From the NCBI RefSeq assembly GCF_010550695.1, contig NZ_JAAGOB010000002.1, forward strand, positions 496,001 to 560,000: a stretch of 64,000 nucleotides of DNA, given 5' to 3'. Every line of letters begins with the position of its first letter. The first letter of the stretch is position 1. The DNA comes from Phytoactinopolyspora alkaliphila (GTDB lineage Bacteria > Actinomycetota > Actinomycetes > Jiangellales > Jiangellaceae). Below the pieces are notes generated by a model that was not told where the DNA came from, did not search any database, and was given only the letters and a program-made list of their open reading frames with translations. Of this stretch, positions 14,652 through 34,173 are shown in pieces. A program made the translations under genes and the position numbers.

Positions 14652-16373
14652 CTATTCCTGGCGACGCGAACGGCCGGCCGGCGTGAGGGTGATCAGATCC
14701 GGGCTCATCCGCAGACCGGAGGAATCCACGTGCTTGTCCACCACCGTGAACCGCACCGCATGGCGGCCGCGCCGTAGGCGCAGGGTCCCGAGCGTCTCGG
14801 ACTTCAGCGACCGGACCGAGACCGTCGACGTGTCGACCGGGCCGCCAACGGGCTCGCCGTCGACGGTGACGGCGACCACGCCGGCGTTGGCCAGGTGGCG
14901 GAACCGGGCTCGTACCTCGTAGTCCGCGGTGCGCGGGACGGTAATCTCCACCTCGACGAAGGCGCCGTAGTCGGTGCTGGCGATCTCGAGCCGCCGTCCG
15001 CCGCTCGCGACCGGATCGTCCACGGTGGAGACGTCACCACCGAAGCTGTCCAGCACCGGCAGACCCTCGACCTCGTACGCGATCGGGAGCTGATCGCGGG
15101 CGGAGCCGGTGTCCGCCCCGGAGGTCAGCCAGGCCAGGTCGAACGTGGCGAGGACGATCTTCGCGGAGAAGCTGGTGGTGATGCCCGGCGCGTGCTCGCG
15201 TCCGTAGAGCACACCGATCCGGCCGTCGGACAAACCGATGGTGTCCGAGTACGACGCCGGTCCCTCGGTGAGGACGCGACTGTGCGGCCACGTCATGCCC
15301 TCGTCGTACGAGATGGACACGGTCATGTTGCGACGGGTGGGTGAATCGGGCCGGCTGAAGACGAGTCGGCTGGGCTCGTCGCTGCCGACGCCGCCGCTGA
15401 TCCGCGAGATGCCGGTGTCCACGGCGTTGACCGGACGTGCGGACGCGTCGAGGACGGGATCGGACCAGGTCTCGCCGCGATCGGTGCTGATCGACACGAT
15501 CCGCGGGTGTATGCCGCCGGAGGCATACCGGCCGAAGCTGGCCAGCGAGCCATCCGGCCGCTCGATCAGCCGGGATTCGTTCAGCGGATACGCGCCGTCG
15601 AGTGGCACACTGCCGCCTTCGGCCCAGGTGTCGCCGGCGTCGTCGCTGTAGATGACGGAGACGCCGTAGCGGCGCTCGGGAACCGGGAAGGCGATGGCGC
15701 GCCGATGCCAGACCTGGAAGACGAGGCGGCCGTCGGAGAGCTGGAGACCGTGCCCCGGGCCGGGCATATGCAGAGTCCAGCCGTGCGGGTTGCCGTCGAA
15801 CATTGACGTCAGTTCGGCGGGCTCGGACCAGGTGCGGCCGTCGTCGTCGCTGCTGATCAGGTAGACGTCGGAGCGGTCCGGAGAGCCGCCCGTGTTTCCG
15901 GGGTCTTTGAAGCAGTCCGCAAAGAGGAGGAAGATCCGCCCGGTATCGCGATCCACGAGCGGCGTGGGGTTGATCAGCGACTGCACACCGTCAGACTCGC
16001 GCACATACTGCATCTCACCCCAGGTACGCCCGCCGTCGGTGCTGCGTTTGACGACGATGTGGTGCGGATCGGCGTCGTGCGCGGTGATGCGGCCCTCAGC
16101 GAAGGCCAGGATGGTCCCCGCAGTGGTCTCGGCGAGGCCGAACACGTGGAAGACGGCCAGGCCGTGATCGCCTGCCTCGAAGATGGTGGACTCGTGGAAC
16201 TCACCCGCAGCCGGCCGGCTCCCGCCGACCGCCGACGACGCCGGAGCGTGCGTCGCGGCCGCGGCAGGGATGCCGAACACACCGGCCGCTCCGGCGGTCA
16301 CCGCGCCAAGAGCCAGGGCACGCCTACTGATGTGGTGGCTCTGAGAGTGTGCTGTTCCTTCGCTGGGAGTCAC
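14652..16373 (-). CDS. Tat-exported sialidase-like exo-hydrolase with BNR repeats
   Basis: 573 aa. A Tat signal (HISRRALALGAVTAGAAGVFG) leads a six-bladed propeller with five Asp-boxes: STDGGRTW, SSDDDGRTW, SDDAGDTW, STDRGETW and SYDEGMTW. About 150 C-terminal residues form a beta-sandwich like a carbohydrate-binding module (YEVRARFRHLANAGVVAVTVDGEPVGG). The family is exo-alpha-sialidase-like (GH33). The FRIP motif that gives the first arginine of the sialidase triad reads FHVF here, so activity on sialic acid is doubtful. A 22-bp palindrome lies about 75 bp upstream. Confidence 0.75.
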   Translation of the reverse strand: MTPSEGTAHSQSHHISRRALALGAVTAGAAGVFGIPAAAATHAPASSAVGGSRPAAGEFHESTIFEAGDHGLAVFHVFGLAETTAGTILAFAEGRITAHDADPHHIVVKRSTDGGRTWGEMQYVRESDGVQSLINPTPLVDRDTGRIFLLFADCFKDPGNTGGSPDRSDVYLISSDDDGRTWSEPAELTSMFDGNPHGWTLHMPGPGHGLQLSDGRLVFQVWHRRAIAFPVPERRYGVSVIYSDDAGDTWAEGGSVPLDGAYPLNESRLIERPDGSLASFGRYASGGIHPRIVSISTDRGETWSDPVLDASARPVNAVDTGISRISGGVGSDEPSRLVFSRPDSPTRRNMTVSISYDEGMTWPHSRVLTEGPASYSDTIGLSDGRIGVLYGREHAPGITTSFSAKIVLATFDLAWLTSGADTGSARDQLPIAYEVEGLPVLDSFGGDVSTVDDPVASGGRRLEIASTDYGAFVEVEITVPRTADYEVRARFRHLANAGVVAVTVDGEPVGGPVDTSTVSVRSLKSETLGTLRLRRGRHAVRFTVVDKHVDSSGLRMSPDLITLTPAGRSRRQE

Positions 16374-19659: not shown

Positions 19660-20619
19660 TCAGCGGAGCCGGACGGCCGCGCGGACGGCGTCGAGTAGCG
19701 CCGGGAGGTCCGGCTCCATCTGGTCGTGGACCACCGCGACGTCGAGACCCGCGTTCACCAGCCGGTGCAGGCCGGTCGCGAGGTCGTCCCGATCGCCGGC
19801 GACGGTGAACGTGTCGAGAACGTCGTCGTTCACCAGGTCGACGCGCGGGGCGCCCGCGTGCCAGCCGTCCCGGAGAGCAGCCGCCTGCAAAGGGTCCAGC
19901 CCTGCCACCCGGGTGATGGAGTGATCGCCGTGGATGCCGAGGAAGGTGGCGGCGAACGGGCGGATCCGGTCCCGCGCCACAGCCCGGTCTGGGTCGTAGC
20001 TGACGGCGACGTAGCTGGCGACGCCGCGCGGCAGGGTCGTGCCGATGCGGTCGAGAGCCCAGCTCACGTAGGCAGGAGACGACAGGACCGAGAGCAGCAC
20101 TCCGTCGGCCACCTCCCCGGCTAATTCCAGCGCCCGAGGCCCCTTCACCCCGAGTACGACGGGCACCGATCCGGGTGGGCGGAACGACATATCGGCCCGG
20201 ACCCGTCCGTACTCACCGTCATGGTCGACGACGCCTTCGTCCAGTGCGCTGCGCACCATCCGCACCGAATCGCGCAGTCTGGTCAGCGGCCGCACGAAAG
20301 GGATGCCGAGCTGGTGCTCCATCCACCGGGCGTTCGATGCCCCGAGGCCGAGAACGACGCGTCCCGGTGCCAGCTCCTGCAGCGCCCCGGCCTCCATGGC
20401 GGTGAGCACAGGATGCCGGGTCCACGGGTTCACCACGCCGATGCCGACGGTGACAGTCCGGGTCGCCGCGAGGACCGCGCCGGCCACGGCGAACGCGCCG
20501 CGCTCCACATAGTCCTCGGTCAGCCACACTTCGTCCAGGCCGTGCTCCTCCGCGAGCTGGGCGACGTGGACGGCGTCACGTGCCGTCCGCTTTCCCGAGA
20601 CGGCCAGCGCCAGGCGCAT
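19660..20619 (-). CDS. LLM class F420-dependent oxidoreductase
   Basis: 319 aa, luciferase-like TIM barrel: MRLALAVSGKRTARDAVHVAQLAEEHGLDEVWLTEDYVE, AATRTVTVGIGVVNPWTRHP and APGRVVLGLGASNARWMEHQ, close to methylene-tetrahydromethanopterin reductase and its F420-dependent relatives. It is the last gene of the five-gene minus-strand operon, 6 bp after the PLP enzyme. Such enzymes carry out hydride transfers on small substrates, and here it would serve the pathway defined by its partners. Confidence 0.8.
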   Translation of the reverse strand: MRLALAVSGKRTARDAVHVAQLAEEHGLDEVWLTEDYVERGAFAVAGAVLAATRTVTVGIGVVNPWTRHPVLTAMEAGALQELAPGRVVLGLGASNARWMEHQLGIPFVRPLTRLRDSVRMVRSALDEGVVDHDGEYGRVRADMSFRPPGSVPVVLGVKGPRALELAGEVADGVLLSVLSSPAYVSWALDRIGTTLPRGVASYVAVSYDPDRAVARDRIRPFAATFLGIHGDHSITRVAGLDPLQAAALRDGWHAGAPRVDLVNDDVLDTFTVAGDRDDLATGLHRLVNAGLDVAVVHDQMEPDLPALLDAVRAAVRLR

Positions 20620-20625
20620 CGCGAC

Positions 20626-21879
20626 CTATCGTCCTTCCGCTCGATGATCCAGCGCGTGTTCCAGTGAGCCGAGTTCCGGGTCGATCACCGGCACGTCCGG
20701 CAGCCTGCGGGCCGCTGCGCCCACGTCCTTCAACCCGGTGGACGTCGCCACACACACCACGCGGCTGTCCTGACCCAGCGTGCCATCCTTCACCAGCCGC
20801 TCCACCGCGGGCAGGCAGATCGCTGACGACGCCTCCAGGAACATCCCACACGACGACGCGATCCGGCCCTGCGCGGTCAGCACCTCGTCGTCGTCGGGAA
20901 TGCCGACTCCGATCCCATCTGTAGCCTGTAGCGCCGCCAGACCTTGGTACGTGGCGATCGGGGTGGCGATGGAGAACGACGACGTCGCGGCGGTCCCGAC
21001 CCGCGCCGGTGCCACGGGATCAGCGGCCAGCGCGGCCTCGTAGGCGCCGAACGGGTCTACCGCTACCAGCCGTGGCTCGCGATCGATGACACCCGCGACC
21101 GCGAGGTCGGCGAAGCCGCGCTGGATTCCGGCCAGGCCGTCGGCGTAGGCGGCGGGCACCACGACGGCGTCCGGCGCCGCGCCCAGGTCTGCCGCGATCT
21201 CGTAGGCGAGGGTCTTGTAGCCGTCGACGCCGTACGGGTTGGAACCCAGCGGCGGGTCCATGAAGCCGGAGATCGGCACCCAGCCCCACCGGTCGACCGC
21301 CTGCCTAAGCAGCGCCCACCGCTCGGGGCCAGTGCGCAGCGCGAAGACCTCGGCTCCGTAGGACTGCATCAGCACCTTCATGGTCTGTGGCACCGATTCG
21401 AGCGTGAACACCACGCAGCGCAGCCCGGCCTTCGCCGCGTAAGCGGCGGCCGCGGCGCCGTGGTTGCCCGTGGTGGCCAGCGCGACGGTCTCGGCGCCCT
21501 GCGCACGCGCCACCGTGATGGCGACGGCCGCCAGCCGGTCCTTGTAGGACCAGGTGGGGTTGCGCGTCTGGTCCTTGAACCACAACTGCCCCACCCCTAC
21601 CTGGCCAGTCAGCCGTCCAGCATCGATGAGGGGTGTGCCGCCCTCGTGGAGGCTGACCGGGACGGCGTCGTCGGGAACGGGCAGGCGTCGTCGGTACCGG
21701 AAGATGCCGGGCTGTTTGGTGTCCGGAGCGAGTGACTCGGGAGTCGGCGCCGTGTAGACAGGCAGGATGTTCGCGTGGACGCCCTGCGCCGCGCATTCGC
21801 TGCAGCCGGTCCACGGCGTCGTCGTCTCGGCCTGGGCGCCACAGCGCACGCACGCGAACGTGCCGGTGAAGTCGCTCAT
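20626..21879 (-). CDS. Threonine synthase-like PLP-dependent enzyme with zinc ribbon
   Basis: 417 aa, fold type II PLP enzyme. Residues 1-30 carry CVRCG and CSEC, a zinc ribbon typical of some threonine synthase-like proteins. The PLP lysine is in PTWSYKDRLAAVA, the substrate loop is TTGNHGAAAAAYAAKAG, and the C-terminal STGLKDVGAA is normal. It is probably a lyase or deaminase acting on a hydroxy or amino acid made in this pathway; threonine biosynthesis genes are absent nearby. The ATG overlaps the stop of the M24 gene as ATGA. Confidence 0.8.
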   Translation of the reverse strand: MSDFTGTFACVRCGAQAETTTPWTGCSECAAQGVHANILPVYTAPTPESLAPDTKQPGIFRYRRRLPVPDDAVPVSLHEGGTPLIDAGRLTGQVGVGQLWFKDQTRNPTWSYKDRLAAVAITVARAQGAETVALATTGNHGAAAAAYAAKAGLRCVVFTLESVPQTMKVLMQSYGAEVFALRTGPERWALLRQAVDRWGWVPISGFMDPPLGSNPYGVDGYKTLAYEIAADLGAAPDAVVVPAAYADGLAGIQRGFADLAVAGVIDREPRLVAVDPFGAYEAALAADPVAPARVGTAATSSFSIATPIATYQGLAALQATDGIGVGIPDDDEVLTAQGRIASSCGMFLEASSAICLPAVERLVKDGTLGQDSRVVCVATSTGLKDVGAAARRLPDVPVIDPELGSLEHALDHRAEGR

Positions 21880-23048
21880 GCCGGCACCACCCGCAGCGAG
21901 CGGTCGGAGTGGGTGAGCAGCTCGTACCCGCTGTCGGTGATCACCACTGTGTCCTCCACCATCATGCCGCCCCAGCCGAGCTGGTAGTACGGGGTCTCGA
22001 AGCAGAACGTCATGCCCGATTCCAGCGGTGTGTCGAAAGACGGGCTGATGATCGGCGGCTCGTACACGTCGCTGCCGATGCCGTGTCCGCAGTGCTGGCG
22101 GCGGTACGGGGCGAGACCGGCTACCTCGACCGTCCTGACGGCGACGTCGAACATCTCCCGGGCGCTGACCCCCGGACGCACCCAGTCCAGCTGGGCTTGC
22201 TCGCCGGCCAGGATGGCGTCGTAGCGGCGGGTCTGCTCCGCCGACGGCTCGCCGATGACGGCGGTGCGGCCGACATCGGACCAGTACCCGTCCACGACGC
22301 AGCCGACGTCGAAGCGCAGGAGGTCTCCATGGCGCAGCTGGCGGGCCGACGGGGCGGCGTCGGCCAGTGCGCTGCGTTCACCGCTGGTGACGACGACGAA
22401 CCTGGGCGAGCCACCCCCGGCCACCATCGCGTGCGAAACCTCTGTGGCCAGTTCCTGTTCCGTCACGCCGGGCTTGGCCTGCGCAAGTGCACGCTCGATG
22501 CCGTCCTCGGCCAGAGCCGCCGCCTTGGCCAGGAGCTCGATCTCGCCCGAAGTCTTGACCGCACGGACGGTCGTGGCCCAGCTGGAGGCGTCGACGGTTT
22601 CGATGCCGTCCGGGAGTGCGGCCTGGACCGCGGGCCACAGGCCGTGCAGTCCGTCGACGTCGACGCCTATCCGCTGGCCGGGTCGCAATCGCCGCTGCAC
22701 GGCGGTGCGGATGGCCTGGACCACGTCGTCGTGCTGATCCACCAGCTTGGTCGGCGCCGCGGCCGGATCGACGGACTCGAAGTAGAACCGACCGAAGCAC
22801 ACCAGGTCATCGCCGTGTAAGCCGGCGTCGATGGCCGGTCCGGAATCGGCGACCGGACAGACGAGCGTCGTTCCCGAGTCCGTGACCAAGGCCGCCATCT
22901 GGTGCTGCCGGAACAGCTGGCCGGACACGCTGCGGTAGCCGGTGGCCTGGTCGACGTTGGCGGGCGACGCCGCCAGGAACGCGTCGAACGGCGCGTCGCC
23001 GAGGGCAGTGGTGAGACGTGTCTTGCGGGCCTCGGTCAGGGCGGTCAC
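21876..23048 (-). CDS. M24 family metallopeptidase / creatinase-like hydrolase
   Basis: 390 aa. An N-terminal creatinase-type domain (residues 1-155) is followed by the pita-bread domain. All five metal ligands can be seen: Asp pair in FDVGCVVDGYWSDVGRT, His in RRQHCGHGIG, Glu in FCFETPYY and Glu in MMVEDTVVIT. The fold includes Xaa-Pro aminopeptidase, creatinase and ectoine hydrolase. Given the NCS1 permease and LLM enzymes, hydrolysis of a cyclic or amide substrate is as likely as peptidase action. The GTG start has CGGAGA upstream. Confidence 0.85.
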   Translation of the reverse strand: MTALTEARKTRLTTALGDAPFDAFLAASPANVDQATGYRSVSGQLFRQHQMAALVTDSGTTLVCPVADSGPAIDAGLHGDDLVCFGRFYFESVDPAAAPTKLVDQHDDVVQAIRTAVQRRLRPGQRIGVDVDGLHGLWPAVQAALPDGIETVDASSWATTVRAVKTSGEIELLAKAAALAEDGIERALAQAKPGVTEQELATEVSHAMVAGGGSPRFVVVTSGERSALADAAPSARQLRHGDLLRFDVGCVVDGYWSDVGRTAVIGEPSAEQTRRYDAILAGEQAQLDWVRPGVSAREMFDVAVRTVEVAGLAPYRRQHCGHGIGSDVYEPPIISPSFDTPLESGMTFCFETPYYQLGWGGMMVEDTVVITDSGYELLTHSDRSLRVVPA

Positions 23049-23126
23049 GGATTCTCCGATCGATCTGTGGTGGTGCGGTGCGTCGGGCCGACTTCTGATG
23101 CTCGGCCGGCGCTGTGGCCTTGTGGT

Positions 23127-24143
23127 TTAGCCGAATCTGGGCATCACCTCGGCGCTGAACAGCTCCATCGCGCGGATCTTCTCCTCGACCGTGGAGCAGG
23201 CGAACAGCAGACCGGCGAAGGTGCTCACCCCGGCGTCCACGTAGGCGCGGATCTGATCGGCCACGTCGTCGGGCGTGCCCACCAGGTTGCGGCCGATGAG
23301 GTCGCCGTCGTGCTGGTCCTTCAGGGTTGAGCCGGACAGGGATTTCAGGTGGGCGTAGACCTGGGAGGCGCGGAACCGCTCCTCGGCTTCCTCGCGTGTC
23401 GGCGCGACGGACACGCCTACCTGCAGCGCCACCTCGAACGTGCCGGTCAGCTCCCGCCCGATGCTCTGGGCGGCGTCGTCGATCTGCTTACGTCCGGCGA
23501 CCACCTCCTCCGGTGTGAGGCACGCGGGCAGCCAGCCGTCGGCGAGCCGGCCGGCCCGGTCCTTGGAACCGGCGCTGTTGCCGCCGGACAGGATCGGCAG
23601 GTTCGGCTGCAGCGGCTTCGGGTAGCTCTCGACGTCGGAGAAGCGGATCAGCTCGCCGTCGAACCCGGCCCGGCGCTCGGTGAACAGCAAGCGGAGCGAA
23701 CGGATGGCCTCCTCGGCGTAGTTGCCTCGGTGCAGCTTGATGCCCGGGTGCAGCGCCTCCAGCTCCTCCCGGTAGGCGCCGATGCCCACCCCGGTCACCA
23801 CGCGTCCGCCGGAGAGCTGGTCCAGCGTGGCCAGCTGTTTGGCGGCCACCACCGGGTGCCGGAACGGCAGCACCAGCACGCAGGTGGCCAGCCGGATCCG
23901 CTCGGTGCGCGCGGCCACGTAAGCGAGGTAGCCGAGCGGGTCGAAGAACGACGGCGGCTGGTCGAACTCCTCGCGCACGTAGGCCTGGGTGGAGAGGTGG
24001 TCGTTGCCCCACACCGAGTCGTAGCCCAGTTCCTCGGCCACCACCGCCAGCTCCACGGCCTGCTGCGCGCTGGCGAACGGCACCGGGTACATCATGCCCT
24101 CGGTGGCGGTGGGAACGCCGATCCCGAAACGTGGGGTCGTCAC
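23127..24143 (-). CDS. LLM class flavin-dependent oxidoreductase
   Basis: 338 aa from GTG 24143, which has AAGGAGAC 5 bp upstream and overlaps the permease stop as GTGA. Start TTPRFGIGVPTATEGM, then ELGYDSVWGNDHL, RIRLATCVLVLPFRHP, GRVVTGVGIGAYREEL: the luciferase-like monooxygenase fold. Being coupled to an NCS1 permease it is likely to act on the imported compound. RutA, which opens the uracil ring, belongs to the same broad superfamily, but I see no evidence that this is RutA. Confidence 0.85.
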   Translation of the reverse strand: MTTPRFGIGVPTATEGMMYPVPFASAQQAVELAVVAEELGYDSVWGNDHLSTQAYVREEFDQPPSFFDPLGYLAYVAARTERIRLATCVLVLPFRHPVVAAKQLATLDQLSGGRVVTGVGIGAYREELEALHPGIKLHRGNYAEEAIRSLRLLFTERRAGFDGELIRFSDVESYPKPLQPNLPILSGGNSAGSKDRAGRLADGWLPACLTPEEVVAGRKQIDDAAQSIGRELTGTFEVALQVGVSVAPTREEAEERFRASQVYAHLKSLSGSTLKDQHDGDLIGRNLVGTPDDVADQIRAYVDAGVSTFAGLLFACSTVEEKIRAMELFSAEVMPRFG

Positions 24144-25450
24144 ACTGTCTCCTTCGTGCGTCGTCGGGTGACCATGACGAGCAGCCCGTACAGGGCGCCG
24201 GCGATCACGAGCGCTGTCAGCGGGGCCACCGGCAGGTCGGCGAAGTGGGCGAACAGCGACGTCGCCACCCAGGCGATCAGGGCTTCGATACGCAGGGTGG
24301 GCGCCTGCGCTTCGGATGCGCTGGTGGCGTTGCGGATGTGGCCGAGCACCCAGAAGTGGGTGATGACGACGCCGGCCAGCGGCGGTGTGACCACGGCGAT
24401 GATCTGCAGGAACGAGAGGAAGTCGGCCGCGAAGCCGAGGAAGGCAACTCCCACGGCGATCAGCGTCGCCACCACTACCCAGGCCGGCTTGGGCACCTTG
24501 ACACCCACCAGCTTGCTGGCGTTGGTGAAGGCGAGCGAGGACGAGTAGATGTTGTTGTCCGTCGTCGTCCACAGCGCGAGGACCAGGACGATCACGGCCG
24601 GGAGGAGCAGTCCGAGGTTGCTCATCGCGACGACGAAGTTCGGCGTGCCGGCCGCGTTGGAGCTGATCATCGCGACGAATTCGAAGAACCCGGCACCCAG
24701 GACGTAGCCACAGAAGGTGGCGATCACCACGTCGCGGCCACGGTGTGCGTAGCGGGCGATGTCGCTGGTGAGGGCGGCCCCGGTGATCCAGGTGGCGATG
24801 ACGGCGGTGAGGCCGACGTCGAACGAGATGGGCGCCGCGGGCTGGGAATCGATCGCGGCGGAGAACCCGTCGTCGCCCGTGCCGAGCCTGATCAGCCCGA
24901 TCAGGGCGAACAGAATGAGTGCGGGAGCGGCGATCCGGCTGATCCAGGCCAGGCCGGAGAAGCCGAAGAGCGCCGTGAGCAGCACCGCGATGGCGAAGAC
25001 GAAGATGACGGCCGGCTTCGGCACGCCGTCCACCAGCGCGACGAATGCGGTGCCGAACGAGTCAAGAAGGACGCCGATGAAGCCCATGGCCAGGACGCCG
25101 AGCACCAGGGAGACCAGGATCGAGCCCTGTCGCCCGAACACGGTACGGCTGATCAGGTACGTGGTCATGCCCGTCCGGTAGCCGATCAGCCCGATGAGGG
25201 TGGCGATCACGGCGAGGATCACGTTGCCGAGCAGGATCGCGGAGAGCCCCTGTCCGAACTCCAGGCCTCCACCGAGGGTGCCGCCCACCAGGAAGCCGGA
25301 GATGCTGATCACCCAGCCGAAGGCGACGGCCATGAGCTGGAAGGTGGAGCGGCGCTGGGCGAGCGGGACCGCGCTGAGCGCGTGGTCGTGCATGACGTGA
25401 TCGTGCGCACCTCTTTGTGCCTGCGTTACAAGCTCGTTTCGGTTGTCCAT
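24140..25450 (-). CDS. NCS1 family permease (cytosine/purine/hydantoin-type)
   Basis: 436 aa with about 12 hydrophobic segments. Landmarks are AVAFGWVISISGFLVGGTLGGGLEF near the start, LSAILLGNVILAVIATLIGLIGYRTGMTTYLISRTVFG, and the central NIYSSSLAFTNASKL. NCS1 symporters import nucleobases, hydantoins, allantoin or vitamins across the inner membrane. It is the first gene of the operon running to 19660 and is divergent from the PucR regulator. Confidence 0.85.
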   Translation of the reverse strand: MDNRNELVTQAQRGAHDHVMHDHALSAVPLAQRRSTFQLMAVAFGWVISISGFLVGGTLGGGLEFGQGLSAILLGNVILAVIATLIGLIGYRTGMTTYLISRTVFGRQGSILVSLVLGVLAMGFIGVLLDSFGTAFVALVDGVPKPAVIFVFAIAVLLTALFGFSGLAWISRIAAPALILFALIGLIRLGTGDDGFSAAIDSQPAAPISFDVGLTAVIATWITGAALTSDIARYAHRGRDVVIATFCGYVLGAGFFEFVAMISSNAAGTPNFVVAMSNLGLLLPAVIVLVLALWTTTDNNIYSSSLAFTNASKLVGVKVPKPAWVVVATLIAVGVAFLGFAADFLSFLQIIAVVTPPLAGVVITHFWVLGHIRNATSASEAQAPTLRIEALIAWVATSLFAHFADLPVAPLTALVIAGALYGLLVMVTRRRTKETV

Positions 25451-25558
25451 GAGACATCCTTCTGCGAATGGTCGAGAGGTGCATGGCGCTGTACGGGTTC
25501 AGACGATGGTCCCGCAGCTTCGGTGAGTGCAGCTACCGTCGCGGGAACTGAAGTTGAG

Positions 25559-26818
25559 ATGATGTGGTTTGTGAGCCGCACACAAGTAGCCCGCAAGCTC
25601 ATCGACCAGGTGGACGTTCTGGCCGACCGTGTCGTCGACCTCGTGTGGGAACGGGTGCCCGGCTACCAGATGCCGCGGATGCGACGCTCGGACCTGGCCG
25701 AGGCGGTGGCGCCGAACCTGCGCTCGGTTCTTTCGCTGCTGGTGGAGGTGGACGGTGGTGACTCGGTGTCTGGGACGGGCGGGTCGGCTGGGTCGGCCGA
25801 GAGCGGGACCGGCGACGAGCTGGTGGAGCGGGCTCGTGCCATCGGGGTCAGCCGCGCGCTGCAGGGCGTGCCGCTGGATGCCGTCGTCCTGTCCTATCGG
25901 TCCGCCGAGCGGGTGCTGGCCGACGCGTTCGTATCCGGCGTGGGTGAGATGACCAGCGACGAGCTTCGGGGCGGCCTGCGCATCCTGGCCGACGGCTTCG
26001 ACCGGCTGGCCACGGCGTCGATCGAGAGCTACCGGGAGACCCAGCGCGAGGTCACCGCCCATTATGACCGGGTGGCCGGTGACCTGGTGGCCGGCCTGGC
26101 CGGCGGCGAACTCGACGGGCAGCAGGTGCGGCGGCTGGCGCAGATGCTCGGAGGCAACCCGGACGACACCTGGCAGGCGGTGGCGATCTCCGTGCGCGCT
26201 GACCCTGACCTTGCCGTGAGTCTTCGGCTGCTGCGTGACGTGCTGGCCGCGCTGGGTCGTGGGCGAGCTGGCCGCATTCTGGCCGGATCCGCGCGAGGAT
26301 CCGACGTGCTGCTGGTGCCAGGCTCTATTCGGGCCGCAGACTTTGGCGCGCTCGAGCGGGCCGTGGCTGGGCATGCTGCGGCAGCGTCGATCTGGGTGAC
26401 CGTCGGTGAACAGGTGTCCGGTCTGCCGGAGGCGGAGGCGTCATGCCGGCAGGCACTGATGGCGATGGATGTGGCGGTGCGGGCGCGACCGGGCGGGAGC
26501 GTCACCCCGTACGGAGACGTGCTGCTCGACGTGATGGCCACGGCGGACGCGGACGCTGGGACTGTGCTGGTCCAGCGCTACGTCGACCCCATCCGCGAGT
26601 TCCCGCACCTGGTGGAGACGGTGCTGGCGCTGGCCGAGGCGGACCTGTCCATCCGCGGCGCGGCCGCCAGCCTTTACGTGCATCCGAACACCGTCATCTA
26701 CCGGCTGGGGCGAGTGCGGCAGCTGACCGGGCACGATCCGCGTTCGCTTCCCGAGTTGGTCTCGTTCTTGATGGGCCTGCGCGCCGACCAGCGCGACGTC
26801 CGCGCGGTGCCACGTTGA
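25559..26818 (+). CDS. PucR/CdaR-type transcriptional regulator
   Basis: About 419 aa. The N-terminal two thirds are helical and mixed ligand-binding sequence (DLVWERVPGYQMPRMRRSDLAEAVAPNL). The C-terminus has the PucR_HTH: LVETVLALAEADLSIRGAAASLYVHPNTVIYRLGRVRQLTGHDPRS. Such regulators often control purine or other nitrogen-compound catabolism. It faces the NCS1 operon across about 110 bp and probably governs it. Start is ATG 25559 or 25562; GTG 25571 is also possible. Confidence 0.85.
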   Translation: MMWFVSRTQVARKLIDQVDVLADRVVDLVWERVPGYQMPRMRRSDLAEAVAPNLRSVLSLLVEVDGGDSVSGTGGSAGSAESGTGDELVERARAIGVSRALQGVPLDAVVLSYRSAERVLADAFVSGVGEMTSDELRGGLRILADGFDRLATASIESYRETQREVTAHYDRVAGDLVAGLAGGELDGQQVRRLAQMLGGNPDDTWQAVAISVRADPDLAVSLRLLRDVLAALGRGRAGRILAGSARGSDVLLVPGSIRAADFGALERAVAGHAAAASIWVTVGEQVSGLPEAEASCRQALMAMDVAVRARPGGSVTPYGDVLLDVMATADADAGTVLVQRYVDPIREFPHLVETVLALAEADLSIRGAAASLYVHPNTVIYRLGRVRQLTGHDPRSLPELVSFLMGLRADQRDVRAVPR

Positions 26819-26967: not shown

Positions 26968-28506
26968 TTGCGGTTCAAGACTCCCTACCGCCGTACCGCT
27001 CGTCCCGCACAAGTTGCTTGGTCCTTCGGCGTCTTCGCCGCCCTCACACTGCTCGCGGCATGCGGCGGCGAAGACTCCAAAGCCGACGGCGCGGCAGCTC
27101 CGGACACCGGGCAGGGTGACACCCTCTCGATAGCCGTGAGCGCGGAACCTCCCCACTACAGCTGGATACAGGGCGGCACCGGCCTCAAGGTTCAGGTCAT
27201 GCTCATGCACAACGTGGTGGAGCCGCTGCTGGAAAGGATGGAGGACGGCTCTCTGGAGCCCCTGTTGGCCGAGGCCTTCGACGTGAGCGCCGACGGGCTG
27301 GAGTACGTCTTTACTATCCGTGAGGCAGTCTTCCACGACGCAAGCGAGCTGACCGCGGCCGACGTCACCTACTCGCTCGAACTCTCGCGGCAATCCTCGG
27401 TGGACGCGATAGCGGGACCGCTGAAGCCGGTGGAAACCATCGAGATGGTGGACGAGCGCACCGTCAAAGTCACGCTCTCCGCACCCAGCCAGCGCTTCCT
27501 CGAGGCGCTTTCCCGAGACAGCGCCTTCATTGTTCCTGAGGGCAGCGAGGACCAGCTCAGGAACGCACCTGTGGGCACGGGTCCGTTCGTGTTCCAGGAG
27601 TGGCGGCACGGCATAGAACTCAAACTGGCCCGCTTCGAGGACTACTGGGGTGATCAGCCCCATTTCGCGAACGTGGACTTCCGATTCATCGAAGAGGCCA
27701 ATGCACAGGCCAACGCGGTACAAGCCGGGAACATCGACATCGTGGACCAGGTCTCTGGCGAGGTGCGGCAACAGCTGGATGGCACCCCCGGCTACACCAT
27801 GGTGTCCGAGGCTGGGCAGGAGATGATGTGGGCGTTCCTCAACGCCGATGACGATCTCTTCGACGACGAGCGGGTCAGGCAGGCGATCGCCCACTCAATC
27901 GACCGGGACGAGATCATCGCCGGTGCGCTCGCCGGGTATGGCGACCCGACCTGCACATATGTCAACCCGCCGGGTGTGACGTGGGAGACTGACCACTGTC
28001 CGTACCCGCACGACCCTGACCGGGCGCGGCAGCTGCTCGCCGAGGCCGGCGCCGAGGACCTCACACTGACCATGAAGACCGCCACGGTCATCCACTTCCC
28101 GCTCGTCACCGAGATCATCACCTCGCAACTCGCGGAGGCTGGGATTACAGTGGACAACGACCCCGTGGACCTGCCGACCTGGCTGGAACACATACCGAAC
28201 GCCGACTACCAATTCACCGTCATCTCCGGCTCCCAGCAGGTGGACGACTACGTCTGCCCGGGCTTCTGGAGCCATGACTGCATGCCCGAGTTCGATGACC
28301 TGCTCGCCGAGGCCGACCACTCGGTGGACCTGGACGAGTGGGCTGACCTGCGGCGCCAAGCCGTGGAGATGCACGCCGACCGGGCCCACGTCATTCCCCT
28401 CATCAACACGCTGATCCTGTCGATGGCCCGCGAGGACATCGATGGGTTCAAGCCGTACCGGTCCTACGTCGAACTAGATCTGCGAAACCTCAGGTGGCTT
28501 GACTGA
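26968..28506 (+). CDS. ABC transporter substrate-binding lipoprotein (peptide/nickel family)
   Basis: 512 aa. A lipobox LLAAC (Cys 32) ends the signal peptide, so the protein is anchored outside the membrane. The SBP_bac_5 fold shows VVEPLLERMEDGSLEPLLAEAF and VGTGPFVFQEWRHGIELKLARFEDYWG. It starts at TTG 26968 behind CGGAGG. It is a close paralogue of the binding protein at 45253 and shares cysteines around PTCTYVNPP, DHCPYPHD and CPGFWSHDC. It delivers solute to the adjacent permeases at 29097 and 30052. Confidence 0.85.
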   Translation: MRFKTPYRRTARPAQVAWSFGVFAALTLLAACGGEDSKADGAAAPDTGQGDTLSIAVSAEPPHYSWIQGGTGLKVQVMLMHNVVEPLLERMEDGSLEPLLAEAFDVSADGLEYVFTIREAVFHDASELTAADVTYSLELSRQSSVDAIAGPLKPVETIEMVDERTVKVTLSAPSQRFLEALSRDSAFIVPEGSEDQLRNAPVGTGPFVFQEWRHGIELKLARFEDYWGDQPHFANVDFRFIEEANAQANAVQAGNIDIVDQVSGEVRQQLDGTPGYTMVSEAGQEMMWAFLNADDDLFDDERVRQAIAHSIDRDEIIAGALAGYGDPTCTYVNPPGVTWETDHCPYPHDPDRARQLLAEAGAEDLTLTMKTATVIHFPLVTEIITSQLAEAGITVDNDPVDLPTWLEHIPNADYQFTVISGSQQVDDYVCPGFWSHDCMPEFDDLLAEADHSVDLDEWADLRRQAVEMHADRAHVIPLINTLILSMAREDIDGFKPYRSYVELDLRNLRWLD

Positions 28507-28507
28507 C

Positions 28508-29053
28508 ATGGAGGTCCTGGCACCAGTCCTGCGCAGCTTCACCGAACCGCCGGCGTTGGAGAGCATCACCGTGGGTGAGCCGCGCGCAGGCGAGGTCAGA
28601 GTCCGCATGGTCGCGGCCGGCGTCTGCCATAACTGCCTCGCCGTCGAGCAGGGGCTGTACCCGGACATGCCGTTGCCGATGATCCTCGGCGACGAAGGTG
28701 CGGACGTGGTCGACGCGGTGGGACCGGGCTGCGCCCTGCTCCCTGGAGACCATGTCACCCTGTCCTGGGCGCCGTCCTGCAAGAAGTGCTTGATGTGCGC
28801 CAAGCACCGCCCCGCGCTGCGCGAGGACGCCTCTCCTTTCTATATGAACGACGGGACCAGCCGGTACAGCGGAGGGGACGAGCCGGTCATGCATTTCGGC
28901 TCGTCCACTTATAGCCCCTACGTGGTGGTCGCCGAGAACATGGCTGTGCGGATCACGTCGCGCGTCCCACTCGACCAGATCAACGAGTCGAGTGAGGCAC
29001 TCGCCGGCAAGGAGCTTCGCGGTGTGATCCTCTTTTCCGAGGACGGCGCATGA
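28508..29053 (+). pseudogene. Zinc alcohol dehydrogenase with internal loss of the NAD-binding domain
   Basis: 181 aa. The N-terminal GroES-like domain is present with VAAGVCHNCLAVEQGLYPD and MILGDEGADVVDAVGPGC. A CKKCLMC structural-zinc cluster lacks its fourth cysteine. After YVVVAENMAVRI the sequence jumps directly to the far C-terminus of the family (VPLDQINESSEALAGKELRGVILF). About 180-200 residues with the Rossmann fold are gone, in frame. Starting 1 bp after the transporter lipoprotein and inside its operon, it is still translated-looking but cannot bind NAD as an ordinary dehydrogenase. Pseudogene, or a small zinc-binding protein. Confidence 0.75.
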
Positions 29054-29096
29054 GCCCGAACGGACATGCCGCCCCACCCGCACGAGAGGTCTTCGA

Positions 29097-30059
29097 ATGA
29101 TCCGTCTGATCGCGCATCGAGGCGCCGTACTGCTGGCCTCCGCGATGGCTGGCTCCATCGTCGTGTTCTTGCTGCTGAGACTGCTCGGCGGCGACGTGGC
29201 GACGGTCATCATGGGCCAGGGAGGCACCCCGGAGGCGCGTGAGGCGCTCCGCGCCGAGCTGGGGCTTGACCGATCTTGGCTCGAGCAGTATCTCAGCTGG
29301 ATCGGCGGGCTGTTCCGCGGTGACCTGGGCCAGTCCTACGCCGCTCAGTACGACATTTTCGACGAGATCATGTCCAGGCTGGGCCTGACGCTCAGCCTCG
29401 CGCTCATCTCGCTGGCCGTCTCGATGGTGCTCGGCATCATCGCCGGCACGTACTCCGCCCTCAACTCCCGTAACGCGCGGGGAGGGCTGGTGGACGTGAT
29501 CGCCCAGCTAGGCATCGCCATCCCCCCGTTCTGGGTGGGGCTGCTGCTGATCAGCTTCGTGTCGGTGCAGATGGGCTGGCTGCCCTCCGGTGGATACGTG
29601 CCATGGACGGAGAGCTTCACCGGGGCCGTTCGCAGCCTGTTCTTGCCGCTCACAGCCCTGTCGATCGCGCTGGCCGGTGTCTTCACCCGGTTTGCGCGGT
29701 CGAGCATGCTGGACGTGCTGAACGAGGACTACATCCGCACCGCCATGGCCAAGGGCCGGACCTGGCGCCGCGCCGCCGTCCGGCACGGCGTGCGCAACGC
29801 CGCGATTCCTCTGGTGACCGTCGGCACCCTGCAACTGGGCGGTCTCCTGGCCGGAACCGTGGTGATCGAGACCGTCTTCACCCTGCCTGGGCTCGGCCGC
29901 ATGCTGATGGCGGCCGTGACTGGCCGGGAAGCGCTGGTGGTGCAGTCACTGGCGTTCGTCATCATCCTGGTCATCCTGGTCCTGAACTTCTTGATGGACG
30001 TCGCGTACGGCCTGCTCGATCCGAGGATCCGCGACGCGGAGGGAGCCACCCGTGAGTAG
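29097..30059 (+). CDS. ABC transporter permease (DppB/OppB-like)
   Basis: 320 aa with six hydrophobic segments. It begins MIRLIAHRGAVLLASAMAGSIVVFLLLRLLGGD. The EAA-like loop FARSSMLDVLNEDYIRTAMAKGRTWRRAAVRHGVRNA contacts the ATPases. Inner-membrane channel half of an Opp/Dpp importer, paired with the next gene, which starts inside its last codons. Confidence 0.9.
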   Translation: MIRLIAHRGAVLLASAMAGSIVVFLLLRLLGGDVATVIMGQGGTPEAREALRAELGLDRSWLEQYLSWIGGLFRGDLGQSYAAQYDIFDEIMSRLGLTLSLALISLAVSMVLGIIAGTYSALNSRNARGGLVDVIAQLGIAIPPFWVGLLLISFVSVQMGWLPSGGYVPWTESFTGAVRSLFLPLTALSIALAGVFTRFARSSMLDVLNEDYIRTAMAKGRTWRRAAVRHGVRNAAIPLVTVGTLQLGGLLAGTVVIETVFTLPGLGRMLMAAVTGREALVVQSLAFVIILVILVLNFLMDVAYGLLDPRIRDAEGATRE

Positions 30060-30882
30060 CCGCTGGCCAACCCAGCTCGTCGTCGGCACCGTGCTGATCG
30101 GCCTTTTCGTCGGGATCGGGCTGATGTCCCTGGTGTGGACGCCTCATGACGCCGAGGCGCTCAACGTCGCCGCCCGTCTCGCTCCACCGGGTACCGAAGG
30201 GCACCTGCTCGGCACCGACCGGCTGGGCCGCGACGTCACCACCCAGATCATGGTCGGCGCCCGGAACTCGCTGGTGGTAGCCGTGGTTTCCACCGCCGCG
30301 GCCCTGGTGCCCGGTGTCTTCCTGGGGCTGGTGACCGCCGGCTCCAAGCGGGCCTCGCGTGAGGTGCTCAGCCGAGCCACCGACGTGGCCCTGGCCCTGC
30401 CCGGCATTCTCGTCGCCCTGGTCCTCGCCACCGCCATGGGCGCCAGCAACACCACCACCATGGTCGCAATCACGGCCTGGTTCATCCCGGTCATGGCGCG
30501 GGTGGTCATCGGCCCGGCACGCCAGATCATGGCGCGCGAGTTCGTCGAGGCGGCCCGCGCCAGCGGGCGCGGCAAATGGTACATCCTGATCCGCCATGTG
30601 CTGCCCAATATCGGCCCGGTGGTGATCGTGCAGACGTCGCTGCTGTTCGCGTCGGCCATCCTGATCGAGGCGGCGCTGTCCTATCTCGGCGTCGGCGCTC
30701 AGCGCCCCACAACGTCGTGGGGGATGCTGTTCAACGAGTCCCAAGCCGTGGTGGGCGAGGCGCCCACGCTAGTACTCATCCCGGGAGTGGTAATGGTCCT
30801 GGCCGTACTCGGATTCAACCTCCTCGGGGACGGGCTCCGGGCCGCGCTGGATCCCCGCCAGACAACCAAGGCGGTGGTGTGA
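30052..30882 (+). CDS. ABC transporter permease (DppC/OppC-like)
   Basis: 276 aa. The GTG start overlaps the upstream stop by 8 bp, so the two permeases are translationally coupled. GTEGHLLGTDRLGRDVTTQIMVGARNSL and the loop REFVEAARASGRGKWYILIRHVLPN are characteristic of DppC. It has fewer than the usual N-terminal residues before the first segment, but is otherwise complete. Confidence 0.9.
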   Translation: MSSRWPTQLVVGTVLIGLFVGIGLMSLVWTPHDAEALNVAARLAPPGTEGHLLGTDRLGRDVTTQIMVGARNSLVVAVVSTAAALVPGVFLGLVTAGSKRASREVLSRATDVALALPGILVALVLATAMGASNTTTMVAITAWFIPVMARVVIGPARQIMAREFVEAARASGRGKWYILIRHVLPNIGPVVIVQTSLLFASAILIEAALSYLGVGAQRPTTSWGMLFNESQAVVGEAPTLVLIPGVVMVLAVLGFNLLGDGLRAALDPRQTTKAVV

Positions 30883-31877
30883 TGCTGTCTATCCGCGACC
30901 TGACCGTCCGCATCGGCCCATACCAGATCGTCTCGATCGACGAGCTGCACCTCACCCGCGGCCGCAGGCTCGGCCTGGTGGGCGAGTCCGGCTCCGGCAA
31001 GACGATGACGGCGATGAGCATCGTTGGCCTGCAGCCGCGCGAGGCCCAGATCACCGGCTCGATCACATTCGACGGACGCGAGCTGGTCGGCCTCACCGAT
31101 TCACAACTGGCCGCTATCCGCGGCACCGACATCGGGGTGATCTTCCAGGACCCCCTGCGGGCGCTGAACCCCACCATGCGGATCGGCAAGCAGATCGGCG
31201 AGTCCGTACGGCTCCACAGTGACCTGCGCCGCTCCGCGGTCAACGCGCGCGTGATCGACCTGATGACGCAGGTCCAGCTGCCCGAACCGGAGCAGCTGGC
31301 ACGCCGGTACCCCCACCAGCTGTCCGGCGGTCAACGCCAGCGGGTGGTGATCGCCATGGCCATCGCCGCCCGACCGAAGCTGCTCATCGCCGACGAGCCG
31401 ACCACCGCGCTGGACGTGACCGTCCAGAAGGGAATCCTCGATCTCCTTGCCCAGCTGAGCGAGGAGTACGAGATGGCGATGCTCTTCGTCAGCCACAGCC
31501 TGGGTGTGGTCCGCAAGATCACTCACGACGTCGCCGTCCTGTACGGAGGACGCGTGGTGGAGACGGGGCCGAGCTCCGAGATCATCGATCAGCCTCGGCA
31601 CCGCTACACCGAGGCGCTGATCGGCGCCAACCCCGGGCAGGCCGATCCGGACGCAATCGAGGCCGCGCTGGGCACCCCCTTGACCACCATCCCCGGCTCG
31701 GTTCCCGCCCTGGATGCCTTCCCCAGCGGCTGCCGGTTCCGGGACCGCTGCGCTCACAGTCTCGACACCTGCGCCGAGAACCCGCCGGTCACCAGAATGT
31801 CCGGCGGGCACCGCTTCACCTGCTGGAACCCCACGCACACACCCGTCGGAGGTGAGCTCGATGGCGCCGCTCGTTGA
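30882..31877 (+). CDS. ABC transporter ATP-binding protein (DppD-like)
   Basis: 331 aa. Walker A GESGSGKT at about residues 36-43, signature LSGGQRQR, Walker B LLIADEPTTALD, and the oligo_HPY tail PSGCRFRDRCAHSLDTC that marks Opp/Dpp ATPases. The ATG starts on the last base of the upstream stop (TGATG). It powers the importer together with the following ATPase. Confidence 0.9.
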   Translation: MLSIRDLTVRIGPYQIVSIDELHLTRGRRLGLVGESGSGKTMTAMSIVGLQPREAQITGSITFDGRELVGLTDSQLAAIRGTDIGVIFQDPLRALNPTMRIGKQIGESVRLHSDLRRSAVNARVIDLMTQVQLPEPEQLARRYPHQLSGGQRQRVVIAMAIAARPKLLIADEPTTALDVTVQKGILDLLAQLSEEYEMAMLFVSHSLGVVRKITHDVAVLYGGRVVETGPSSEIIDQPRHRYTEALIGANPGQADPDAIEAALGTPLTTIPGSVPALDAFPSGCRFRDRCAHSLDTCAENPPVTRMSGGHRFTCWNPTHTPVGGELDGAAR

Positions 31878-32646
31878 CGTCCGGGATCTGTCGTTCCGGT
31901 ACGGCCACAAACAGAACTGGGTGCTGCGGTCGCTGAACCTGTCGATCGAGCGCGGCTCCGCCGTGGGGGTGGTGGGCGAGTCCGGGTCAGGCAAGTCCAC
32001 GCTTGTCCGGTTGCTCTGCGGACTGCTCCCGGTGGGGTCCGGATCGGTCACGTACGACGGCCGCGCGGTCACCGACTGGCTGTCGAAAGACCCCCGCCAG
32101 TTCCGGCTGCACAACCAGATGGTCTTCCAGAGCCCCGCCGCCTCTCTCGATCCCCGGATGCGGATCAGGCGGTCGGTGGCCGAGCCGGTCCGGGCGCTCG
32201 AGCGCCGCAAGATCGGCGACGACGAGCTGGAGAGCTGGCTCTCCATGGTCGGCCTCGGCCCGGAGGCGCTGAACCGGTATCCGCACCAATTCTCCGGCGG
32301 CCAGCTGCAGCGGGTGGCCATCGCCCGGGCGCTCTCGGTCAGTCCCACCGTCCTCTACGCCGACGAACCCACGAGCGCTCTCGACGTCTCCGTGCAGGCG
32401 CAGGTGCTCAACCTTCTGATGGATCTGCGGGCGAGGCTGGGGCTGACACTGGTCATCGTCTCTCATGACCTTGCCGTGGTCAGCCGGATGTGCGAGCACA
32501 TCCTGGTCATGCGCAACGGCGAGATCGTCGAGTCCGGGCCCACCGTCGACGTGCTGCACAGCCCCAGCTCCGCCTATACAAACGCCCTGACCAAGGCCGC
32601 GAGTGCAGTCAGCCTCAGGCCGGGCAACGTCACCAGCGCGGGGTGA
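31861..32646 (+). CDS. ABC transporter ATP-binding protein (DppF-like)
   Basis: 261 aa. Walker A GESGSGKS, signature FSGGQLQR, Walker B VLYADEPTSALD, and the C-terminal switch SHDLAVVSRMCEHI. The ATG lies 17 bp inside the preceding ATPase. It lacks a long oligo_HPY tail, as is usual for the shorter DppF members. It is the last gene of the importer unit and is followed by a perfect terminator stem. Confidence 0.85.
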   Translation: MAPLVDVRDLSFRYGHKQNWVLRSLNLSIERGSAVGVVGESGSGKSTLVRLLCGLLPVGSGSVTYDGRAVTDWLSKDPRQFRLHNQMVFQSPAASLDPRMRIRRSVAEPVRALERRKIGDDELESWLSMVGLGPEALNRYPHQFSGGQLQRVAIARALSVSPTVLYADEPTSALDVSVQAQVLNLLMDLRARLGLTLVIVSHDLAVVSRMCEHILVMRNGEIVESGPTVDVLHSPSSAYTNALTKAASAVSLRPGNVTSAG

Positions 32647-32713: not shown

Positions 32714-33976
32714 TCAGGCCTCGGCGGTGAGCGCGGCGTCGAGTCGCTCCAGCACGGTGGTCAACTCGTCTTCGCCGTGGGCGGCGGAGACGTACCAGAT
32801 CCCGCGGGGAGCCACCCAGACTCCGTGCTCGAACAGCGTGCGCGTGAGGTCCGCGTACCGGCTCTGGTCGAATCCCGCCGTTCCGGCGTGGTCATGGACC
32901 AGCTCCGGCTCGCCGAAGGAGACATGGAACGCCATCGGCAGGCCCTGCGACCGCAGCGGCACCTGATGCGCCGCCCCGAGCTCGCGGATCCCCTCGATGA
33001 GCTTGGATCCGTGCGCCTCGATCCGGCCGTACGGCGGATCGTCCCTCAGCAACCCCAAGGTGGCGATGACCGCCGCGCAGGCGGGGATCGAGGAGTTGAA
33101 CGTCCCGGCGTGCACCACGCCCTCGGTCAGCTGGTCCATCAGCTCAGCTGTCCCGGCCAGTGCCGAGACCGGCCAGCCGCCAGCCATCGCCTTGCCGTAG
33201 ACGGCGAGGTCCGGGGTGACGCCGTAGCGTTCCACGGCACCGCCGAGGGCAACCCGGAAGCCGGTGATGACCTCGTCGAAGATCAGCACGATGCCGTGCT
33301 GATCGCACAGACGGCGAATCTCGGCCAGGAAGCCGTCCTTCGGCTGGATCGCGGCGCTGTTGCACATCACCGGCTCGACGATGATGGCCGCGATGTCATC
33401 GTGCGCGCTCAGTGTCTCCCTCAGCACCTCGGGGTTGTTGTAGGGGATGAAGTACGTGTCGTCGAGATGGTGCGCCAGCTGTCCGACACTGCCCGGAGCC
33501 GTCACGCCGTCGACGGTGGTCGCCAGGACGTTGTCCAGCCATCCGTGGTACGTGCCCTCGAACCTGACAAACCTGGTCCGCCCGGTGGCCGCCCGCGCAA
33601 GCCGCAGCGCCGCTTGGTCCGACTCCGTGCCGGTAAGCCCAAACCGCACGCGGTCAGCCCAGCCAATGGTGTCGAGGAACACCTCGCCGGCCGCGTTCTC
33701 CAGGACGTGCTGCGCGCCGAACACGGAACCCCGGCGGGCCTCCCGCGCCACCGCGTCGTTCACCACCGCCGACGCGTGGCCCAGCAGGTTCGGTCCCTGG
33801 CCGAGCAGGTAGTCGACATACTCGTTGCCGTCCACGTCATACAGCCGCGCACCCTCGCCGCGCTCGAAGCAGATCCGCGGACCGGCCAGCCGGACGTTGG
33901 AATGAACGCCGCCGGGGGTGAGCTGCTGTGCGCGCTGGTGGATCTCACCCGACCGTGTCCTGCTCCTGTGCGACAT
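32714..33976 (-). CDS. Class III aminotransferase (glutamate-1-semialdehyde aminomutase-like)
   Basis: 420 aa from ATG 33976; a TTG 33 bases upstream is also in frame. The PLP fold type I shows ERGEGARLYDVDGNEYVDYLLG near the start, TESDQAALRLARAATGR, IFDEVITGFR, and the Schiff-base lysine in AVYGKAMAGGWP. It resembles GSA aminotransferases, but hemL context is absent. The enzyme likely moves an amino group in the adjacent catabolic pathway. It is divergent from the AstE-like gene. Confidence 0.85.
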   Translation of the reverse strand: MSHRSRTRSGEIHQRAQQLTPGGVHSNVRLAGPRICFERGEGARLYDVDGNEYVDYLLGQGPNLLGHASAVVNDAVAREARRGSVFGAQHVLENAAGEVFLDTIGWADRVRFGLTGTESDQAALRLARAATGRTRFVRFEGTYHGWLDNVLATTVDGVTAPGSVGQLAHHLDDTYFIPYNNPEVLRETLSAHDDIAAIIVEPVMCNSAAIQPKDGFLAEIRRLCDQHGIVLIFDEVITGFRVALGGAVERYGVTPDLAVYGKAMAGGWPVSALAGTAELMDQLTEGVVHAGTFNSSIPACAAVIATLGLLRDDPPYGRIEAHGSKLIEGIRELGAAHQVPLRSQGLPMAFHVSFGEPELVHDHAGTAGFDQSRYADLTRTLFEHGVWVAPRGIWYVSAAHGEDELTTVLERLDAALTAEA

Positions 33977-34173
33977 GGTGCCTGCTTTCTGTGGTTGAAT
34001 GACCGCCAAAGTCTCACCAGATGGGTAATTCTTTCACTGGATGAATCGCCACACTACGTTACAGTCACGGCCAGGGAAAGCTCTGTTAACGCGGAGGTCC
34101 TGTACTATGAAAAACGAATCCCACCTGCTGGACCACCAGTCGGCGGTGGCCCGCTGGCCCGAAGGGAGCGGCA

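Follow-up and report, generated by a model that had tools for sequence, protein, structure and literature searches.

A recurrent cassette of luciferase-like, M24 and PLP enzymes with interchangeable importers: a candidate operon for breakdown of a small N-heterocycle or cyclic amide in Phytoactinopolyspora alkaliphila

Several described systems share parts with the locus reported here. The Rut operon acts on a ring nitrogen compound with a luciferase-family enzyme and includes RutB, a member of the isochorismatase family, while ectoine and hydroxyectoine utilisation (eut/doe) includes EutD, which hydrolyses a cyclic amidine ring. Among importers, NCS1 permeases and NMT1/THI5-type ATP-binding cassette (ABC) systems are typical for N-heterocycles, and ABC systems with a family-5 substrate-binding protein (SBP) are typically peptide-type. 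NCS1 members carry quite different compounds, such as metformin (PMC13390362), and mutation of Gln105 or Trp108 strongly lowers cytosine transport by the permease CodB (PMC9379551). We analysed a 64,000-nucleotide stretch of Phytoactinopolyspora alkaliphila (contig NZ_JAAGOB010000002.1, positions 496,001 to 560,000; this whole stretch is the window). It contains five minus-strand genes running from position 25450 to 19660 in the order NCS1 permease, luciferase-like enzyme LLM1, M24 hydrolase, pyridoxal 5'-phosphate (PLP) enzyme and second luciferase-like enzyme LLM2, with a divergent regulator. With moderate confidence, we read this cluster as a catabolic operon, inducible and horizontally mobile, that acts on a small N-heterocycle or cyclic amide/amidine. 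Its features are as follows.

19660-20619, minus strand: LLM2, Mer-like luciferase-family oxidoreductase, 319 aa (PF00296, 177 bits)
20626-21879, minus strand: threonine-synthase-like PLP enzyme with N-terminal CxxC..CxxC, 417 aa (PF00291, 198 bits)
21876-23048, minus strand: M24 metallo-hydrolase (creatinase N + M24), 390 aa (PF00557, 170 bits; PF01321, 26.7 bits)
23127-24143, minus strand: LLM1, luciferase-like/F420-type oxidoreductase, 338 aa (PF00296, 194 bits)
24140-25450, minus strand: NCS1 permease, 436 aa (PF02133, 96.6 bits)
25451-25558, no strand: divergent intergenic region of 108 bp between the NCS1 and regulator genes, presumed promoter/operator
25559-26818, plus strand: HTH_30/GGDEF_2 (CdaR/PucR-type) transcriptional regulator, 419 aa, divergent (PF13556, 62.9 bits; PF17853, 33.3 bits)

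An earlier note on this DNA had described five genes in tight order behind a divergent PucR regulator. The cluster is real and its six genes were confirmed as described: coordinates, gaps and Pfam matches bear out the packing and the divergent regulator, with junctions of -4 bp (NCS1/LLM1), 78 bp (LLM1-M24), -4 bp (M24/PLP) and 6 bp (PLP-LLM2), the GTG start of LLM1 having been chosen within a longer open reading frame (ORF) such that it overlaps the NCS1 stop. The PucR N-terminal domain was not borne out. The regulator passes the gathering score of PF13556 (62.9 against 27 bits), which places it in the PucR/CdaR-type HTH_30 group, but only HTH_30 and GGDEF_2 were matched in it in Pfam and PF07905 was not; five PF07905 matches occur elsewhere in the genome. 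An operator repeat was sought in the 108-bp spacer, where only chance-size repeats were found, and no sigma-70-like promoter was detected within it by a scan that covers actinobacterial promoters poorly. Four terminator-like sites were predicted in the region, all on the plus strand (shuffle mean 1.5, standard deviation 1.3).

The case for a functional unit is carried by its recurrence. A scan of a species-level genome collection seeded with the M24 protein returned 72 loci (73 with the window), among which 46 hold LLM1, M24 and PLP genes by score thresholds and form the counting set used below; in the 27 uncounted loci, many of them with proteobacterial M24 relatives, LLM1 or the PLP gene was under threshold in the fetched stretch, some of these stretches lying at contig ends. 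The three core genes are adjacent, in the same order and on the same strand, in 43 of the 46 loci, with gaps of -13 to 88 bp that are approximate outside the window, since start codons there were placed by alignment to the window protein. The exceptions (L048, L053 and L060) have M24 elsewhere in the locus. LLM2 lies directly 3' of the PLP gene (-4 to 25 bp) in 36/46; an LLM2-like gene is found upstream of LLM1 in L017, L025, L045, L054 and L056 and elsewhere in L048, and no LLM2 over threshold was found in L019, L028, L029 or L031. Two genomes of another family of the phylum carry the whole six-gene set, with identities of about 50% (regulator), 67-71% (NCS1), 77% (LLM1), 67% (M24), 68% (PLP enzyme) and 61-66% (LLM2), and in G609 the LLM pair is followed by an ABC importer and then by the M24-PLP pair. 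Because it recurs in other genomes, the arrangement is more than chance.

While the enzyme core is constant, its importers vary. NCS1 relatives, counted as present at 150 bits or more, occur in 18 of the 46 core loci, and in all 18, window included, a related regulator stands divergent beside the NCS1 gene. Related family-5 ABC genes lie upstream of the core in 12/46 (37-82% identical to those of L018; a distant 25% family-5 match elsewhere in the L024 locus was left out of this count) and, at the thresholds used, never co-occur with NCS1 in a core locus. L013 has a more distant NCS1 protein, L026 and G609 contain NMT1/THI5-type ABC systems (those of L026 and L121 adjoin the core or lie within it), and a branched-chain-type ABC occurs in L053, with a gene of the same cluster in L060. 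Such a pairing of fixed enzymes with varying importers is what would fit if a single small compound, or a narrow class of them, were taken up and broken down.

The window permease has the cytosine permease model PRK11017 as its nearest model (216.9 bits, under the cut-off of 326) and CodB as its nearest solved relative (E 1e-38 over residues 23-433). It differs from CodB in that Gln105, Trp108 and Phe204 correspond in the alignment to Ala121, Phe124 and Trp221, in 18/18 NCS1 relatives. Cytosine is thus an unlikely substrate by this comparison, because Gln105 and Trp108 are both replaced and mutating either strongly reduced transport in CodB. The earlier note had raised the prospect of a cytosine-type permease whose neighbours are absent in relatives: CodB is indeed nearest, but 17 other NCS1-type loci also contain the neighbours, and every one of the 18 permeases has substitutions at both CodB positions on which cytosine transport most depends.

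In the M24 hydrolase, D247, D258, H322, E351 and E365, the five M24 metal ligands by alignment to prolidase, are invariant in 46/46, and the second prolidase histidine is replaced by tyrosine in 44/46. The predicted fold (predicted local distance difference test, pLDDT, 95.7) matches EutD/DoeA (Z 39.6, root-mean-square deviation 3.0, 364 aligned) and PepE (Z 39.4, 2.9, 363 aligned) in a tie. Outside the core, the M24 family also occurs without LLM genes in the fetched stretch, mostly in Proteobacteria. On a plasmid of Rhodococcus sp. JS3073 (L098, 13491-18969), an M24/PLP pair is flanked by a major facilitator superfamily transporter and an MmgE/PrpD-family gene, and so stands in another pathway context; loci on Bosea and Aminobacter plasmids and a PLP gene on a Mycobacterium paragordonae plasmid likewise extend the M24/PLP families beyond the core and give no substrate clue.

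The PLP enzyme shares with threonine synthase (ThrC) the PALP fold and the lysine of the (S)(F/Y)KDR motif. Its best-scoring models are those for threonine synthase in NCBIfam, but it remains under their cut-offs (TIGR00260, 117.9 against 167.1 bits), and the ThrC motifs TGSFKDR, GNTxAS/GNTSAS and GNAGN align with TWSYKDR, GNHGAA and AYADG, with W110, S111, H140 and G141 conserved at 97% or more. The enzyme is not needed as sole threonine synthase, because two other ThrC homologues in the genome pass the cut-off (285.2 and 282.9 bits). The zinc ribbon reported earlier holds for the window protein, in which cysteines 10, 13, 26 and 29 are present; as a family-wide feature it fails, each cysteine being missing in 10 to 12 of 46 relatives.

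For the luciferase-like enzymes, the comparison is with F420-dependent Mer/FGD enzymes, to which LLM2 is nearest by sequence (among solved structures it matches F420-dependent Mer enzymes best, E 8.3e-34) and LLM1 by predicted fold. LLM1 passes TIGR03619 (198.3 against 166.9 bits); the eight best matches to its model (pLDDT 89.2) are F420 enzymes with Z 33.6-35.5, the nearest being Mer (35.5), FGD and Adf, but LLM1 is only 20-26% identical to these and the flavin mononucleotide (FMN) enzyme SfnG follows at Z 33.5. RutA and luciferase-type enzymes also appear in the predicted-fold lists of the LLM1/M24 searches, as do DddP and creatinase. Use of F420 by LLM1 and LLM2 is possible. The flavin "ring-oxidising" role assigned earlier is unproven, because the LLM enzymes may use this coenzyme and the predicted LLM1 fold ranks nearest to enzymes that do.

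Genomic evidence for F420 was assessed through its biosynthesis genes. In 24 of 31 core-bearing genomes (9/13 and 15/18 in two sets, omitting L049 and L058, which have cofD and lack LLM1 in the locus), cofD was over the cut-off. It was unmatched in the isolates L021 and L022 and in L026, L025, L028 and L056, and just under the cut-off in L017; cofG and cofH were matched in L026 despite the missing cofD match. Among 297 sampled genomes of the order of Rhodoplanes tepidamans (G068), with at most seven LLM candidates scored per genome, 30 have cofD, including 3/3 LLM1 carriers (E 1e-50), a co-occurrence that is suggestive only, because G068 was the centre of the sample and the G077 match is weak (36% identity). 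There is no clear enrichment in the family of L016, where the base rate is 87/199 against 3/4 core-bearing Microbacteriaceae (L013, L016 and L018 with cofD, L021 without). A cofG match was absent in 6 of 12 genomes tested, including the window genome; the window genome, L016, L018 and L011 have cofD and no cofG match, and cofH was also unmatched in the window genome and L016. Where cofD lacks cofG, the F420 precursor Fo might be scavenged or another chromophore used, or assembly gaps may be responsible. Given L021, L022, L026 and the missing cofG/cofH matches, we do not claim strict F420 dependence.

Part of the loci carry additional enzymes: a molybdenum (Mo) hydroxylase large subunit in 10 of the 46 core loci, DUF917 (Pfam S-Me-THD) in 8/46, a SnoaL-like protein in 7/46 and a HyuA-like protein in 6/46. 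These loci are mostly metagenome-assembled genomes (MAGs) labelled Acidimicrobiia or Acidimicrobiales, together with one each labelled Acidobacteria, Gammaproteobacteria, Poseidoniales and unclassified and two Hyphomicrobiales (L053, L060); L017 and L054 combine such enzymes with a family-5 ABC. All are missing from the window operon and from every NCS1-type locus. Mo hydroxylase, DUF917 and HyuA neighbours support ring-nitrogen chemistry. In addition, L012 has an isochorismatase-family gene near the core, and L038 (Mycobacterium) has a Rieske oxygenase and an alpha/beta hydrolase upstream. Two labels in this set are questionable, and both loci were kept in the 46-locus and cofD counts. L028 ("Poseidoniales") was rejected as archaeal evidence: it shares a nearly identical PLP enzyme with Acidimicrobiales L031, the flanking genes match at 97-99% identity, and the contig is therefore probably mis-binned; the "Gammaproteobacteria" label of MAG L056 is doubtful.

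Carriers of the cassette include cultured members of several actinobacterial families, MAGs with the label Acidimicrobiia and a small number of Hyphomicrobiales. When 396 genomes of the phylum were sampled, LLM1 relatives (E 1e-90) were present in at least 4, counting the window genome itself, a lower bound given that at most five candidates were scored per genome. In the four same-genus genomes searched, no close M24 copy was found (best E 1.7e-27 to 2.7e-34). The PLP tree includes several paralogues on long branches, and only one placement was used from it: the window copy falls with L006 (Nitriliruptoraceae), G377 and G439 (support 100/99). Four Jiangella copies cluster with Streptosporangiaceae and some Micromonosporaceae. 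Because the window copy groups with Nitriliruptoraceae-type copies and not with Jiangella of its own family, horizontal transfer is suggested, and the window genome likely acquired the cassette in this way.

In the pathway we propose, the NCS1 symporter would import the compound, which the divergent HTH_30 regulator would sense. One LLM enzyme would alter the redox state of the ring in an F420- or FMN-dependent reaction, and the metal-dependent M24 hydrolase would then open a ring C-N bond. From the resulting open-chain amino acid, the PLP enzyme would remove or replace a beta/gamma substituent or ammonia, leaving the remaining redox step to the second LLM enzyme. Import and breakdown of an N-heterocycle or cyclic amide, as first proposed in the earlier note, is supported by the synteny, by the NCS1 or NMT1/THI5 importers and by the Mo hydroxylase, DUF917 and HyuA neighbours of some loci. 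The substrate class is suggested by importer types and neighbours, and the exact compound, reaction order, cofactor and induction are likewise matters of inference. Several observations weigh against this pathway. All 46 loci were drawn from a single scan seeded with M24 and filtered by score; they are not independent, since several genera recur and L028 is almost a duplicate of L031. Neither the window operon nor most of the 46 loci have the genes for Mo hydroxylase, DUF917 and HyuA, which may belong to another pathway; the peptide-type family-5 ABC of some loci does not point to planar heterocycles; and the evidence for F420 is mixed, with cofD unmatched in L021, L022 and L026 and cofG and cofH unmatched in the window genome.

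Other explanations share some of this evidence. The M24 protein is near prolidase and PepE in sequence and fold, and the family-5 importers of 12 loci are of a peptide type, so a pathway for peptides or amino-acid derivatives is possible, if unlikely; the M24 enzyme would act as a dipeptidase on an imported dipeptide, either modified or cyclic, and the residue thus freed would be processed by the PLP and LLM enzymes. However, the second prolidase histidine is almost always tyrosine, and the window and 17 other loci use NCS1, which is not known to import peptides. A reductive version of the ring pathway, which we consider quite improbable, would have the LLM pair saturate a pyrimidine-like ring with F420 (for example a thiamine-type 2-methylpyrimidine), possibly cycling the coenzyme between reducing and oxidising steps; M24 would open the reduced ring by analogy with the opening of the tetrahydropyrimidine ectoine by EutD, and the PLP enzyme would eliminate ammonia. 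This version would account for importers of the NCS1 and NMT1/THI5 types and for the resemblance of the M24 fold to EutD, but the evidence for F420 is mixed.

Cytosine/pyrimidine salvage, or Rut- or hydantoin-type pyrimidine catabolism under a PucR-like regulator, appears very improbable. The permease is closest to cytosine permease by both model and solved relative, and one relative (L012) has the isochorismatase-family gene; on the other side, the permease misses the PRK11017 cut-off and has changed equivalents of Gln105/Trp108 in 18/18, RutA is only a distant match to LLM1, and no cytosine deaminase, RutB-F or hydantoinase families were found by Pfam among the operon proteins. No hydantoinase or carbamoylase genes, as in Hyu/Mhp1-type operons, occur in the window operon, and 0/6 of the HyuA-like core loci are of NCS1 type. 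Ectoine utilisation, which the earlier note had listed among candidate substrates, leaves still less room: EutD/DoeA is among the top M24 fold matches and an AstE/DoeB-like protein is encoded next door together with a further PLP enzyme of EutB/ThrC type, but M24 is only about 22% identical to EutD/DoeA and scores 65.9 bits against a cut-off of 613 (TIGR02993), the PLP enzyme 38.5 against 413.35 for EutB (TIGR02991) and the neighbouring AstE 91.3 against 402.7, the operon content differs, and LLM enzymes are not known to take part in eut/doe. That unrelated genes from large families have clustered by accident is next to negligible; M24 does occur without LLM genes, but 43 of 46 loci, from many families, preserve order and packing, and the six-gene set recurs in two further genomes. 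Judged by cut-offs, contact residues and gene contents, the operon is not an ectoine, Rut, hydantoin, cytosine or ThrC system.

The next locus in the window (32714-36194) encodes a GSAM-like class III aminotransferase, an AstE/DoeB-like deacylase and a second ThrC/EutB-like PLP enzyme; relatives of all three occur together at C6 (L106) of the same genome, and relatives of the aminotransferase and PLP enzyme also at C31 (L114). The related chemistry suggested earlier for this locus was not supported, as only broad enzyme classes are common to both: its hydrolases belong to the AstE and MlrC families, and its PLP enzyme is about 30% identical and placed elsewhere in the PLP tree. In G377 (L119, 14279-15703), a class III aminotransferase 60% identical to the window gene at 32714-34009 lies about 0.9 kb downstream of LLM2, a possible hint of a link between the operon and the neighbouring locus. 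Next to the regulator, oligopeptide-type ABC genes (26968-32646) were considered; with SBPs only 23-27% identical, they probably do not correspond to the importer found in the ABC-type loci. Within them, a 184-aa alcohol-dehydrogenase-like ORF (28499-29053) with the GroES-like N-terminal domain only (Pfam) is perhaps a decayed gene. Elsewhere in the window are a BNR-repeat sialidase-like protein (14652-16373), a 524-aa protein with a plasmid pRiA4b ORF-3-like domain (PF07929; 16549-18123) and a weakly matched GH20-like glycosidase (46794-48836).

No paper on this enzyme combination was found in open-licence PubMed Central, and searches there on S-methyl thiohydantoin desulfurase, strain JS3073 and F420 distribution likewise yielded nothing of use. 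As far as our searches show, the cassette is uncharacterised and built from familiar enzyme families. A patchy yet recurrent cassette with varied importers is what one would expect if the pathway acted on a natural compound of wide occurrence, and working it out would assign roles to proteins whose present annotations read "threonine synthase", "Xaa-Pro peptidase" or "LLM oxidoreductase".

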